From contig NZ_CP012373.2 in assembly GCF_001305575.3 (NCBI RefSeq), positions 2,490,261 through 2,554,260 of the forward strand: a DNA stretch of 64,000 nucleotides. The letters are read 5' to 3'. The stretch is from Beggiatoa leptomitoformis (GTDB lineage: Bacteria > Pseudomonadota > Gammaproteobacteria > Beggiatoales > Beggiatoaceae). The notes under the pieces were generated by a model. It was not told where the DNA came from and did no database searches. It worked only from the letters and a program-made list of their open reading frames with translations. This document shows, one piece after another, positions 19,655-23,571 of this stretch (positions are counted from its first letter, which is position 1; every line of letters begins with the position of its first letter). A program made the translations under genes and the position numbers.

Positions 19655-19808
19655 GTCACCATTAGCTACGACCCCACAAGACGCTTAATTGAAGTCAAAC
19701 AAGGCATACTAATACAAGGTTTTATCTATTAAGACAAACTCAAACCTGTTACGTAACTCGATGGACAAAGCAATTTAATTGCTAGATTCGTTTATGTCTC
19801 AAAAACTA
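19655..19808 (+). pseudogene. Rhs/YD-repeat core fragment a (decayed)
   Basis: Translation gives IEVKQGILIQGFIY, then a stop, DKLKPVT, a stop, and LDGQ..LIARFVYVSK. This aligns with the intact-looking core in fragments b and c (VLTQGFIYQGKLKPVAQLD, EIVARFVYASK). Two in-frame stops and missing flanks make it a pseudogene. An IS630 pair is inserted immediately after its last recognisable codon. Confidence 0.75.
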
Positions 19809-19841
19809 TATAGTAACCGTATTTTAAAAAGAGGATAAGAA

Positions 19842-20207
19842 ATGACCTATTCAATAGATTTCCGTAGAAAAGTATTAAAAGTGAAACAAGAAGAAAATCT
19901 CACCCTAGCAGCGGTAGCGAAACGCTTTCAGATAGCCATCGCAAGCGTCGTCAGGTGGAGCAAAGTATTAGAAGCCAAAGGGACACGTAACAGACCAACT
20001 AAAATAGACATGGAAGCCCTAAAACAAGATGTAGAGTTATATCCAGATGCTTACCATTATGAACGCGCAGTACGGTTTGGAATAACTGAGGGAGGAATTC
20101 GCCATGCGTTAAAACGTCTAGGGATTAGCCGTAAAAAAAACCCTCAAACATCCCAAAGCCAACCCCGAAGCACGGCAAGTCTTTCAAAACAAAATGAACC
20201 GTTATAA
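19842..20207 (+). CDS. IS630 transposase, N-terminal frame (orfA), copy 1
   Basis: 121 residues carrying the helix-turn-helix DNA-binding part (start MTYSIDFRRKVLKVKQEENL; FQIAIASVVRWSKVLE). The frame runs into an A8 tract at 20133-20140. Beyond it, the +1 frame reads TLKHPKANPEARQVFQNKMN and continues without a stop into the catalytic frame. Full transposase therefore needs a frameshift (or loss of one A) at the A8 run. Copy 2 has the same arrangement. Confidence 0.85.
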   Translation: MTYSIDFRRKVLKVKQEENLTLAAVAKRFQIAIASVVRWSKVLEAKGTRNRPTKIDMEALKQDVELYPDAYHYERAVRFGITEGGIRHALKRLGISRKKNPQTSQSQPRSTASLSKQNEPL

Positions 20208-20664
20208 ACAATCTGATAGGCAAATTGTTTTTATCGATGAAAGTGGTTTTGCTCATGATATGCCACGCCGTTTTGGTTATGCCCCTATCGGCAAACGTTG
20301 CTCTGGCACGCAAGATTGGAATGCAAAGGGACGTACTAATGTCATCGGGGCTTTGCTCAATTTTTGTTTATTAACGGTCTCTTTAGTTTCTGGGGCGATT
20401 AATTCCGATGTCTTTTTCGCTTGGATAACCCAAGACTTACTTCCTAAACTCCCTCAGAATTCTGTGATTGTGATGGATAACGCCACTTTTCATAAACGTA
20501 GTGACATTCAGCAGGCTATTTTAGACGCTGGGCATCTCTTGGAATATTTACCGCCTTATTCGCCTGATTTAAATCCTATTGAGCATAAATGGGCTCAGGC
20601 TAAGACTCTCCGTAAACAACAACATTGTTCTATTGATGAGCTCTTTTTACTGAATTCTATTTAA
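20194..20664 (+). CDS. IS630 transposase, catalytic DDE frame (orfB), copy 1
   Basis: 156 residues with the DDE signature of IS630/Tc1-like transposases: Asp in FIDESGF, Asp in VMDNATFHKR and Glu in SPDLNPIEHKW. It overlaps orfA by 14 bases in the +1 frame. The in-frame open reading extends upstream to the A8 tract, so the ATG at 20194 may not be a true start. The protein is more likely made as an orfA-orfB fusion. Confidence 0.85.
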   Translation: MNRYKQSDRQIVFIDESGFAHDMPRRFGYAPIGKRCSGTQDWNAKGRTNVIGALLNFCLLTVSLVSGAINSDVFFAWITQDLLPKLPQNSVIVMDNATFHKRSDIQQAILDAGHLLEYLPPYSPDLNPIEHKWAQAKTLRKQQHCSIDELFLLNSI

Positions 20665-20717
20665 TCTTTTTATAGTACTGTTGCTATAGTAACCGTCCCT
20701 TAAAAAGAGAATAAGAA

Positions 20718-21060
20718 ATGACCTATTCAACAGATTTCCGTTGTAAAGTATTAAAAGTGAAACAAGAAGAAAATCTGACCCTAGCAGCGGTAGCGAAACG
20801 CTTTCAAATAGCCATTCGTCAGGTGGAGCAAAGTATTGGAAGCCAAAGGAACACGTAACAGACCAACTAAAATAGACATGGAAGCCCTAAAACAAGATGT
20901 TGCATTATATCCCAATGCTTACCATTATGAACGCGCAGCCCGTTTTGGGATTACGGAAGGCGGGATTCGCCATGCATTAAAACGTCTAGGGATTAGCCGT
21001 AAAAAAAACCCTCAAACATCCCAAAGCCAACCCCGAAGCACGGCAAGTCTTTCAAGATAA
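20718..21060 (+). pseudogene. IS630 orfA, copy 2, broken by an 8-base deletion
   Basis: It starts like copy 1 (MTYSTDFRCKVLKVKQEENL), but at about 20813-20818 eight bases present in copy 1 (within GCCATCGCAAGCGTCGTCAG) are missing. This shifts the frame inside the helix-turn-helix. The remaining in-frame part resumes from about 20836. The copy should not make active transposase. Confidence 0.8.
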
Positions 21061-21061
21061 A

Positions 21062-21532
21062 ATGAATCGTTATAAACAATCTGATAGGCAAATTGTTTTC
21101 ATCGATGAAAGTGGTTTTGCTCATGATATGCCACGCCGTTTTGGTTATGCACCTATCGGCAAACGTTGCTTTGGCACGCAAGACTGGAATGCAAAGGGAC
21201 GTACCAATGTCATCGGGGCTTTGCTCAATTTTTGTTTATTAACCGTCTCTTTAGTTTCTGGGGCGATTAATTCCGATGTCTTTTTCGCTTGGATAACCCA
21301 AGACTTACTTCCTAAACTCCCTCAGAATTCTGTGATTGTGATGGATAACGCCACTTTTCATAAACGTAGCGACATTCAGCAAGCTATTTTAGACGCGGGG
21401 CATCTCTTGGAATATTTACCGCCTTATTCGCCGGATTTAAATCCTATTGAGCATAAATGGGTTCAGGCTAAGACTCTCCGTAAACAACAATATTGTTCTA
21501 TTGATGAGCTCTTTTTACTGAATTCTATTTAA
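21062..21532 (+). CDS. IS630 transposase, catalytic DDE frame (orfB), copy 2
   Basis: 156 residues, nearly identical to copy 1 orfB, and all three catalytic acidic residues are kept. Its upstream orfA is broken, so it could act only if complemented by copy 1. Confidence 0.8.
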   Translation: MNRYKQSDRQIVFIDESGFAHDMPRRFGYAPIGKRCFGTQDWNAKGRTNVIGALLNFCLLTVSLVSGAINSDVFFAWITQDLLPKLPQNSVIVMDNATFHKRSDIQQAILDAGHLLEYLPPYSPDLNPIEHKWVQAKTLRKQQYCSIDELFLLNSI

Positions 21533-21556
21533 TCTTTTTATAGTACTGTTTCTATA

Positions 21557-21786
21557 TGTTGGAACGGGAATCGTTGCTGTAGGAGCATGTGCTTTACTTC
21601 CTGAAGTATGTATACCAACGCTCATTATCGGAGTGGCTGGTTTAAGATAGACAACAAGTTAGATAGTTTAGTACGAAAGTTATTAGGATAAAACATTTTA
21701 ACAGTTGCATGAATTATAGAGCATGGATAATTAAATATCCTCATGATTTTTTTATTCACTATTAGTGTACATAACTCAGGAAAAAT
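21557..21786 (+). other. Hydrophobic reading-frame remnant downstream of the IS pair
   Basis: Just after the IS, a frame without a start reads VGTGIVAVGACALLPEV and ends at a TAG near 21650. It may be the glycine-rich end of the Rhs gene interrupted by the IS, but this is speculative. The rest is AT-rich leader of the next gene, with AGGAAAAAT before its ATG. Confidence 0.3.
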
Positions 21787-22227
21787 ATGATGTACTATCA
21801 AACTAATTTATGCGAAATCAATCTATATGGGTTGAATTTGTGCAACTGTATATTTGAGGGCGGGGAAATTGACAGCCTTAATTTAGAAAATATTCGGATA
21901 GAAAATGTTATTTTTGAAGGGTGTATAATGCTAGAAATAAATTTTAGAAATGCAATCTTTATTAATGTTGAGTTTTATGATGTGATTCTTTTCCGTACAG
22001 ACTTTTCTTTAACAAAATGGGATAAATCTCGTTTTTATGGTGTGGATTTGAAAGAAACTAAGTTTTTTCAAGCAACTTTAAGAGAAACCTTGTTTTTACG
22101 AGATAACGTGTTGCATAAAACAGACATTAGCTCTGTAGATTTTTCTACGGCTACCTTTGATAAGGTAATATTAGACAATGTGATGTTTGATAAACACACC
22201 ACCCTACCCAATGGATATAAGCTATAG
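21787..22227 (+). CDS. Pentapeptide-repeat protein
   Basis: 146 residues made of degenerate pentapeptide repeats (pattern A/N/D-L/F-x-x-x, such as NLENIRIENVIFEGC and VDFSTATFDKVILDNVMF). These fold as a right-handed quadrilateral beta helix. There is no signal peptide. AGGA precedes the double ATG. Such proteins range from gyrase-protecting DNA mimics to structural or immunity proteins. Its place between Rhs fragments a and b suggests a leftover cassette gene, but that is only context. Confidence 0.75.
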   Translation: MMYYQTNLCEINLYGLNLCNCIFEGGEIDSLNLENIRIENVIFEGCIMLEINFRNAIFINVEFYDVILFRTDFSLTKWDKSRFYGVDLKETKFFQATLRETLFLRDNVLHKTDISSVDFSTATFDKVILDNVMFDKHTTLPNGYKL

Positions 22228-22247
22228 CCTAGTAGGGTGGACTTTCC

Positions 22248-22547
22248 ACCAAAACCATTGAATACATCATCGATGCCAAAAACCGTCGAGTCGGTAAAAA
22301 AGTCAATGGTGTTCTAACACAAGATTTTATCTATCAAGGTAAGTTAAAACCTGTTGCGCAATTAGATGGTCATGGAGAAATTGTTGCCAGATTTGTCTAT
22401 GCCTCAAAAGCGAATATTCCTGATTACATTCTCAAAAACGGCAATACCTACCGCGTCATTTCCGACCATTTAGGCAGTCCGTGCTTAATCATCGATGCAC
22501 AAACAGGTGCAATTGCACAATGCCTAAATAAAGGGGGATTGATATAA
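22248..22547 (+). pseudogene. Rhs core fragment b
   Basis: An open frame without a start reads TIEYIIDAKNRRVGKKVNG, VLTQDFIYQGKLKPVAQLD, EIVARFVYASKANIPDYIL and ISDHLGSPCLIID, ending after NKGGLI. The DHLGSP motif is the hallmark of the Rhs repeat-associated core. The long N-terminal YD-repeat region is absent and the tip is only a few residues. About 200 bases (22254-22460) recur in fragment c. Confidence 0.85.
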
Positions 22548-22571
22548 ATACGTTACCTTGTGAGATTATCC

Positions 22572-22904
22572 ATGACTAAATATTGGGAGGTAGAGTTTGC
22601 CTCTTTTATAAAAAAATCTCAATATCAAAAAGTTGTGTGGTTAAGCAGCCTTTTAGTTTTTGTCTCAATGTTTGCCAGAGGTACTTATAGGGCAGGCACA
22701 AACCTTGTTGATGAACCAAGTAAACTTAGGAGATACAATGAATTATTGCATAGGATTGCTAATTTCCAACTAGAACTAGCCCGCAATAAGGTTGTAAGAG
22801 TACCAGATGAAGAGTTTTTCTTGATGTTAGCTGATGCAACAGATGGGCTAAAAATTGATATTATTTTCCTACTAGAACATGTCAATAGAAATGCTCAAGC
22901 ATAA
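22572..22904 (+). CDS. Small protein of unknown function next to Rhs fragment b
   Basis: 111 residues from the ATG at 22572 (a GTG at 22560 is an alternative). The sequence is helix-rich, soluble, and shows motifs such as MFARGTYRAGTNLV and RRYNELLHRIANFQLELARN. I do not recognise it with certainty. It begins 24 bases after the stop of Rhs fragment b, the position where an immunity gene normally sits, so a retained immunity gene is a reasonable guess. The ribosome site is weak. Confidence 0.6.
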   Translation: MTKYWEVEFASFIKKSQYQKVVWLSSLLVFVSMFARGTYRAGTNLVDEPSKLRRYNELLHRIANFQLELARNKVVRVPDEEFFLMLADATDGLKIDIIFLLEHVNRNAQA

Positions 22905-23000
22905 GGTGTGTGTTTACACCGCGTAACGCATTCTATGCTGGCTACTGTGTTATCTCCAACCACTTACAAGTAGCGTTAGCAATGCCCACCTTACATACTC
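22905..23000. repeat. Palindromic intergenic repeat remnants flanking Rhs fragment c
   Basis: Contains GCGTTAGCAATGCCCACCTT and neighbouring pieces. These resemble the GTAGGGTGG...GCCCA repeat family seen intact at 23503-23571 and as a short piece at 22231-22250. No gene seen. Confidence 0.4.
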
Positions 23001-23270
23001 CCCACAAAAACCATCGAATACGTCATCGACGCGAAAAACCGTCGTGTTGGTAAAAAAGTCAATGGCGTATTAACACAAGGGTTTATCTATCAAGGTAAAC
23101 TCAAACCTGTTGCGCAATTAGATGATAATGGAGAAATTGTTGCCAGATTTGTCTATGCCTCAAAAGCGAATATTCCTGATTATATTCTTAAAAATGGTAA
23201 CACCTACCGCATTATCGACATTTATAGTCTTGTGTCCCTGAGCGGGTTTTTCCGTCTTTCACAAGGCTAA
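23001..23270 (+). pseudogene. Rhs core fragment c
   Basis: A start-less frame nearly identical to fragment b from TIEYVIDAKNRRVGKKVNG through ANIPDYILKNGNTYRI. It then diverges just before the expected DHLGSP motif into about 20 unrelated residues and a stop. It therefore lost both the YD-repeat region and the end of the core. Confidence 0.82.
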
Positions 23271-23425: not shown

Positions 23426-23506
23426 ATGTCTAAAACATTACTGTTGATTTTCCATCCACTCCACGCGCTCGCTAAAAGTGTTTATTCTATCCCTGTTACA
23501 AGATAG
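23426..23506 (+). pseudogene. Possible truncated flavodoxin-fold oxidoreductase start
   Basis: AGGA precedes an ATG and the frame MSKTLLLIFHPLHALAKS, which resembles the first strand of NAD(P)H/flavodoxin-fold oxidoreductases. It stops after 26 codons exactly where a palindromic repeat begins. Read as a gene cut by the repeat. The family guess is weak because so little remains. Confidence 0.3.
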
Positions 23507-23571
23507 GGTGGACATTGCCCATCAAAATTTGGGCATTTGGCATGTGAATAATGGGCGATGCTTACCCTACT
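23503..23571. repeat. Palindromic MITE-like repeat, GTAGGGTGG family
   Basis: The left arm TAGGGTGGACATTGCCCAT and the right arm ATGGGCGATGCTTACCCTA are near-perfect inverse complements around a roughly 30-base centre. Similar pieces flank Rhs fragments b and c and occur near 38.07 kb. Confidence 0.65.

Follow-up and report, generated by a model that had tools for sequence, protein, structure and literature searches.

The window analysed here is a stretch of 64,000 nucleotides from the genome of Beggiatoa leptomitoformis (contig NZ_CP012373.2), and positions 19655-23270 of it hold three pieces of the Rhs-associated core, fragments a, b and c, with small intact genes between them. The locus is a degenerate array of an already known system, the orphan arrays of Rhs C-terminal (Rhs-CT) and immunity modules. 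Sequence comparison indicates that it is very probably the decayed remainder of three orphan Rhs modules (A, B and C, after their fragments), among which module B keeps the immunity gene of a toxin tip that has been deleted. Homology, the order of the modules, the scar of the tip and the lack of a full-length Rhs are direct observations. Coordinates are those of the window and features lie on the plus strand unless stated otherwise; G and L numbers denote genomes and loci used for comparison.

Tip scar and probable immunity gene of module B

The gene at 22572-22904 is intact and encodes a protein predicted to be all-helical, which has 110 residues from the ATG at 22572, or 114 if translation starts at the GTG at 22560; an earlier note, written from the sequence alone, had seen this gene and given it 111 residues. 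Homologues are found in five of the 58 genomes searched, the source genome counted. In the Thiotrichaceae metagenome-assembled genome (MAG) S06.Bin195 (G008), a 115-residue homologue with 59% identity begins 1 bp 3' of a 705-residue open reading frame (ORF), which combines an Rhs YD-shell and a PT-HINT with a tip of some 80 residues. In Thioploca SL_4_0 (G042), the homologue lies behind the same tip (82% identical to that of G008) and near a PAAR/Rhs-like pair, and the Rhs of this genome is PAAR/VgrG-like.

The deleted tip has left some 13 terminal codons (RGIDINTLPCEIIHD*) in the window at 22530-22576, found by blastn and by a profile; they are in a different frame from fragment b and overlap the start codon of the immunity gene. 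The peptide directly before the gene is RGIDINTLPCEII, and the tips of the relatives end with RGFDINTLPYEAL and RGFDINLLPREVL. The scar is 88.6% identical over 35 nt to L111 of G008 (blastn), and a tip-end profile scores 45 at this site, compared with 22 at the next best site of the 64 kb and a maximum of 34 over 20 shuffles. The switch from core to tip DNA is sharp, at 22529/22530. Because a tip end precedes the gene and the junction is sharp, fragment b and the gene would together represent a toxin gene that lost its tip, with its partner intact. Position and tip pairing are strong evidence that the 110-residue gene is an orphan immunity gene.

The AlphaFold2 model of the 110-residue protein is helical (predicted local distance difference test, pLDDT, 86.5), and Foldseek against the PDB returns nothing below E 1. 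The protein has no match among Pfam and NCBIfam families, and the tip has no family in Pfam, NCBIfam or PDB sequence searches; the AlphaFold2 model of the tip, with a pLDDT of 56, is too poor for use.

Several points weigh against the interpretation of module B. The scar is a short one of some 13 residues, and it is from position and pairing that the gene is assigned as a putative immunity gene. Solitary homologues without Rhs exist in G040 and elsewhere in this genome (L084, L024), a consensus scan finds no consensus promoter upstream on the strand of the gene, and the gene is no longer coupled to the toxin gene as it originally was. The synonymous divergence (dS) of the gene is saturated, so that omega is not well measurable, and the genome of the sister species (G001) has no copy, so that recent selective retention of the gene in this lineage is a tentative proposal.

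Core fragments of the three modules

Fragment b (22241-22529; tblastn, with core-like DNA up to 22529) runs from TKTIEYIIDAKN to DHLGSP...GAIAQCLN. Its open frame has no ATG, GTG or TTG start and ends 25 nt 5' of the immunity ATG. Fragment c (22997-23216; tblastn) is truncated and reads TKTIEYVIDAKN...KNGNTYRII. Fragment a (19664-19804) is a fusion, by internal deletion, of a YD-repeat piece (YDPTRRLIEVKQ, 19664-19703), which is 92.5% identical to positions 14088-14049 of L077 in G001, and a core piece (19709-19804), which aligns to positions 234-329 of the core query (both by blastn); its translation, KLKPVT*LD...LIARFVYVSKTI, has two internal stops. Fragments b and c share 88% identity over 219 nt; for fragment a the figure is 74% over 96 nt. 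In tblastn, the intact core that the genome has at L015 12185-12907 matches fragment b with 85% identity over 87 residues (4e-44), fragment c with 90% over 73 residues (8e-39) and fragment a with 66% over 35 residues (7e-9), similarities that are far beyond chance.

The earlier note had described three related core fragments of Rhs origin, and both parts of this description hold. The Rhs-associated core sequence is detected in each module of the window by tblastn and blastn, intact modules of the genome match TIGR03696, and the fragments match Rhs_assc_core and TEN_YD-shell proteins found in this genome as well as in relatives from the family. The peptides quoted in that note for all three fragments (KLKPVAQLD, IVARFVYASK and ANIPDYILKNGNTYR) are exact in the translations of b and c and not exact in a. 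DHLGSP is kept in fragment b only, as the note had it, and none of the three fragments has a YD body or a toxin, again in agreement with it; none encodes a whole core. Its inventory missed a pair of IS630-family insertion sequences (IS), a pretoxin-like piece at 21558-21647, the tip scar and an IS1-family remnant.

Rhs content of the genome and of its relatives

The complete 4.27-Mb assembly, one contig of 4,265,317 bases, was searched for Rhs. Core DNA occurs at 13 places in five clusters, which are this window, about 2.74 Mb (L017), 3.736-3.742 Mb (L015), 3.782 Mb (L016) and 3.904 Mb (L018). The earlier note had proposed looking for a complete Rhs gene outside this locus, and the outcome is an informative negative: the 4.27-Mb genome holds orphan modules only and no full-length Rhs. 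No TEN_YD-shell match spans more than 219 of 909 positions, and matching frames reach 279 residues at most. The sister species G001 has an Rhs array whose longest frame is 605 residues, and more distant members of the family have Rhs frames of 2,136-2,651 residues. Judging from the two genomes, the delivery part of Rhs seems to have been lost in the genus.

G008 has a main Rhs of 2,262 residues with a signal-peptide-like start, intact tips and modules behind it. Family relatives that bear a name are Thioploca and Thiotrichaceae MAGs; a scan of genome contigs for close relatives returned nothing with the Rhs core and three named contigs with the immunity alignment. Synteny around alaS is broken relative to G001, and a literature search on Beggiatoa Rhs returned nothing relevant.

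Two orphan Rhs ORFs of G008 (L082 4146-6263 and 6710-7843) share the signal-peptide-like start MKHT.LLITLSLFLTGVSS, joined in both to shell parts; it looks as though orphan modules had gained an export signal of their own. In several tips of the family, a [DE]GHHR or NGNTR motif is present near the end, at L077 10900-11450, L038 2400-2565 and L082 6018-6260, and we take these motifs to recall ParB-like toxins.

Toxin deletions and divergence of orphan immunity genes

Two immunity genes of L015 also adjoin the core directly or nearly so. The core is joined 8 or so codons before the start of imm208 (208 residues, 79% identical to G001), where about 490 bp are missing compared with G001, including an EGHHR tip labelled ParB-like; the counterpart of this tip in G001 is still visible, though frameshifted. 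The other gene, imm273, starts exactly at the core end, about 807 bp are missing and homology resumes at the ATG. Three deletions in the genome thus stop 0-13 codons from an immunity start and spare the gene, a count to be read with the caveat of ascertainment that deletions removing the immunity gene too would escape recognition. The three look independent because they leave the core at different points, after GAIAQ, DPINF and NYDA.

Compared with the sister species, four orphan immunity genes have omega of 0.32-0.58 and dS of 0.06-0.62, and alaS has omega of 0.05 and dS of 1.23. The low dS of the immunity genes, set against this one reference gene, suggests exchange of modules between the species. 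A gene of 145-146 residues beside the Rhs arrays (L015 6849-7286; L077 4788-5228) is near-identical in both species, with dS of 0.06, pointing to recent transfer. At L016 5904-6410, an ankyrin-repeat immunity candidate has lost its N-terminus, with a lipoprotein-like signal, compared with G001, and IS elements separate it from its frameshifted tip.

The locus could be neutral debris, in which decay is random and the intact small genes are short targets that have not been hit and give no protection now. This is unlikely, although small genes do outlast others by chance, the ankyrin-type immunity gene of L016 has lost its N-terminus, and omega of 0.3-0.6 in immunity genes lies above the 0.05 of alaS. 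Against it, three deletions of this one genome, with different end points in the core, stop 0-13 codons short of an immunity gene and leave that gene whole; every pair compared has omega below 1, and the gene in the window has kept an open frame next to neighbours with stops and deletions.

Proposed history and function

In the proposed history, the ancestral module would have consisted of a short left-end repeat, the C-terminal part of the core, a toxin tip and an immunity gene. The toxin would have been lost by deletion in module B, split by IS630 insertion in module A and cut off by an IS1-family element in module C. At present the array would work in defence only, because the genome has no Rhs left that could deliver a toxin: if the protein is produced, it would bind a tip delivered by kin and block it. 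This action is modelled on the orphan immunity proteins of other systems (PMC3150448, PMC5361080). For the 110-residue gene we infer expression, binding, protection and retention driven by selection.

The modules could instead be a reservoir of spare tips, kept for recombination at the core, which would place a new tip and its immunity gene onto a resident Rhs. Such use is known for Rhs and contact-dependent growth inhibition (CDI) arrays (PMC3150448), a passage of PMC5361080 cites a Salmonella case, the modules of the window share core DNA, and in G008 such modules follow a full Rhs. The possibility is nevertheless quite improbable here, as the genome has no full-length Rhs recipient and the modules of the window hold no tip any more.

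On a wider scale, the decayed array with its retained immunity gene may be part of a lineage that lost Rhs delivery and keeps scattered immunity genes, trimmed of their toxins by deletions independent of one another, as a purely defensive immunity library. This extension is tentative, with the odds somewhat against it. Modules of such a library would move as units, with the hairpin repeat GTAGGGTGGGCATCGCCCACC as their left boundary, and between the sister species dS of several immunity genes is lower than that of alaS. Orphan toxin/immunity modules raise the open question (PMC3150448) of whether bacteria keep them as spare weapons or as stored shields. Intact immunity genes whose toxins have been excised, in a genome with no Rhs to re-arm, tell these two possibilities apart and speak for the shield. 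The tip/immunity pair, for which Pfam and NCBIfam have no matching family, is open to testing.

Pentapeptide gene and insertion sequences of modules A and C

The immunity position of module A is occupied by an intact pentapeptide-repeat gene of 146 residues (21787-22227; Pentapeptide_4, 1.8e-15). Compared with its G001 homologue, omega is 0.13, which indicates constraint, with dS saturated. This homologue is the closest one (66%) and lies between trmL- and pyrC-like genes with no Rhs near. In G002, a full-length Rhs with a DGHHRY motif in its tip is followed after 6 bp by a pentapeptide gene of 164 residues, which is only 24% identical to the gene of the window. The pentapeptide gene is a candidate second immunity gene, with about even chances of being one.

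The earlier note had proposed both intact genes as retained immunity genes, which is supported for the 110-residue gene, by tip pairing in two genomes and by the scar, and is weaker than stated for the pentapeptide gene. It had held that wide occurrence away from Rhs would speak against such an origin; the 66% homologue of G001 shows this in part for the pentapeptide gene, against which stands the distant pentapeptide gene behind Rhs in G002, and the 114-residue family has solitary members. That both genes are ordinary and were placed between Rhs fragments by a rearrangement unrelated to Rhs is scarcely credible, since, whatever the trmL/pyrC-like setting in G001 and the solitary relatives suggest, pairing with the same tip in two genomes and the scar in the window refute it for the 114-residue gene, and the pentapeptide gene has a Rhs-linked parallel, if only a distant one.

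Module A of the array is interrupted by a tandem pair of IS630-family elements (19809-21556). Copy 1 (19809-20684; orfA 19842-20207, orfB 20194-20664), identified by Pfam (HTH_Tnp_IS630 3.7e-19, DDE_3 1e-33) and by repeat comparison, is placed at a TATA junction where fragment a ends (19804-19808). Copy 2 (20685-21556) abuts it and has a frameshifted first ORF. The two copies, in direct tandem, are only 93% identical and are not the product of one recent duplication. Behind them, a hydrophobic piece at 21558-21647 (VGTGIVAVGACALLPEVCIPTLIIGVAGLR*) matches the C-terminal end of a full-length Rhs of G010 in tblastn (50% over 20 residues, E 9e-5, with a 4.2-kb subject); it is a weak candidate for a remnant of the Rhs C-terminal (pretoxin/tip) region, in the position expected. 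Fragment c is cut short by the 56 bp that remain of an insA gene of the IS1 family on the minus strand (23207-23262), 89% identical to insA in L016 and L017, and alaS follows.

Left-end repeats

Several modules open with a short inverted repeat, GTAGGGTGGGCATCGCCCACC, which is joined to the core at the codons for PYHYDVLGN. Scored without gaps out of 30, with a background 99.9% quantile of 18.3, the repeat reaches at least 19/30 at nine of the 20 core 5' ends of this genome and G001. Module C has a copy at 22967-22996 (CAAGTAGCGTTAGCAATGCCCACCTTACAT; 23/30 to the consensus), and module B a degenerate one at 22231-22248 (TAGGGTGGACTTTCCACC), which scores 16/30, under the threshold. Modules of G008 are preceded by repeats with the same start (GTAGGGTGGGC...GCCCA). 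Involvement of the repeat in the movement of modules is a guess. That it is a common genomic repeat was rejected, as the genome has the form with at most one mismatch at just two places, each of them at an Rhs module. A further degenerate copy (GGTGGACATTGCCCATC, 23501-23523) lies upstream of alaS and is not followed by a core.

Comparison with known systems

The precedent for the locus is the arrays of orphan rhs-CT/rhsI and cdiA-CT/cdiI modules described by Poole et al. 2011 (PMC3150448). Like these, it has tandem C-terminal fragments with a core stub, mostly without a translation start, a small putative immunity gene behind each fragment, and some fragments disrupted by IS elements. The small immunity gene that lies directly behind the tip in orphan arrays is present at 22572-22904, whereas the toxin tip behind the core is absent in the window, with only 13 or so codons left in module B. 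The usual, though not obligatory, position downstream of a full-length Rhs is not seen, as the 4.27-Mb contig has none. Unlike those arrays, the locus has lost its toxin and kept the immunity gene, in a genome without full-length Rhs, and many modules have a short repeat at the left end.

Orphan immunity gene arrays of Vibrio cholerae type VI secretion system (T6SS) clusters (Kirchberger et al. 2017, PMC5361080) are similar in that the effector is lost and the cognate immunity gene is retained, for which kin protection is the proposed reason. Those arrays arise by displacement at an active T6SS cluster, whereas the modules here are scattered over five clusters of the chromosome, their cores are decayed and no protein for delivery was found (T6SS genes were not searched for).

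The array of MAG S06.Bin195 (G008 C33; L080, L082, L111) differs from the window by its main Rhs of 2,262 residues with a signal-peptide-like start and by its intact tips. It comes from the same organism family and has a homologous core, a homologous immunity gene of 110-115 residues with its tip, more shared modules and similar left-end repeats.

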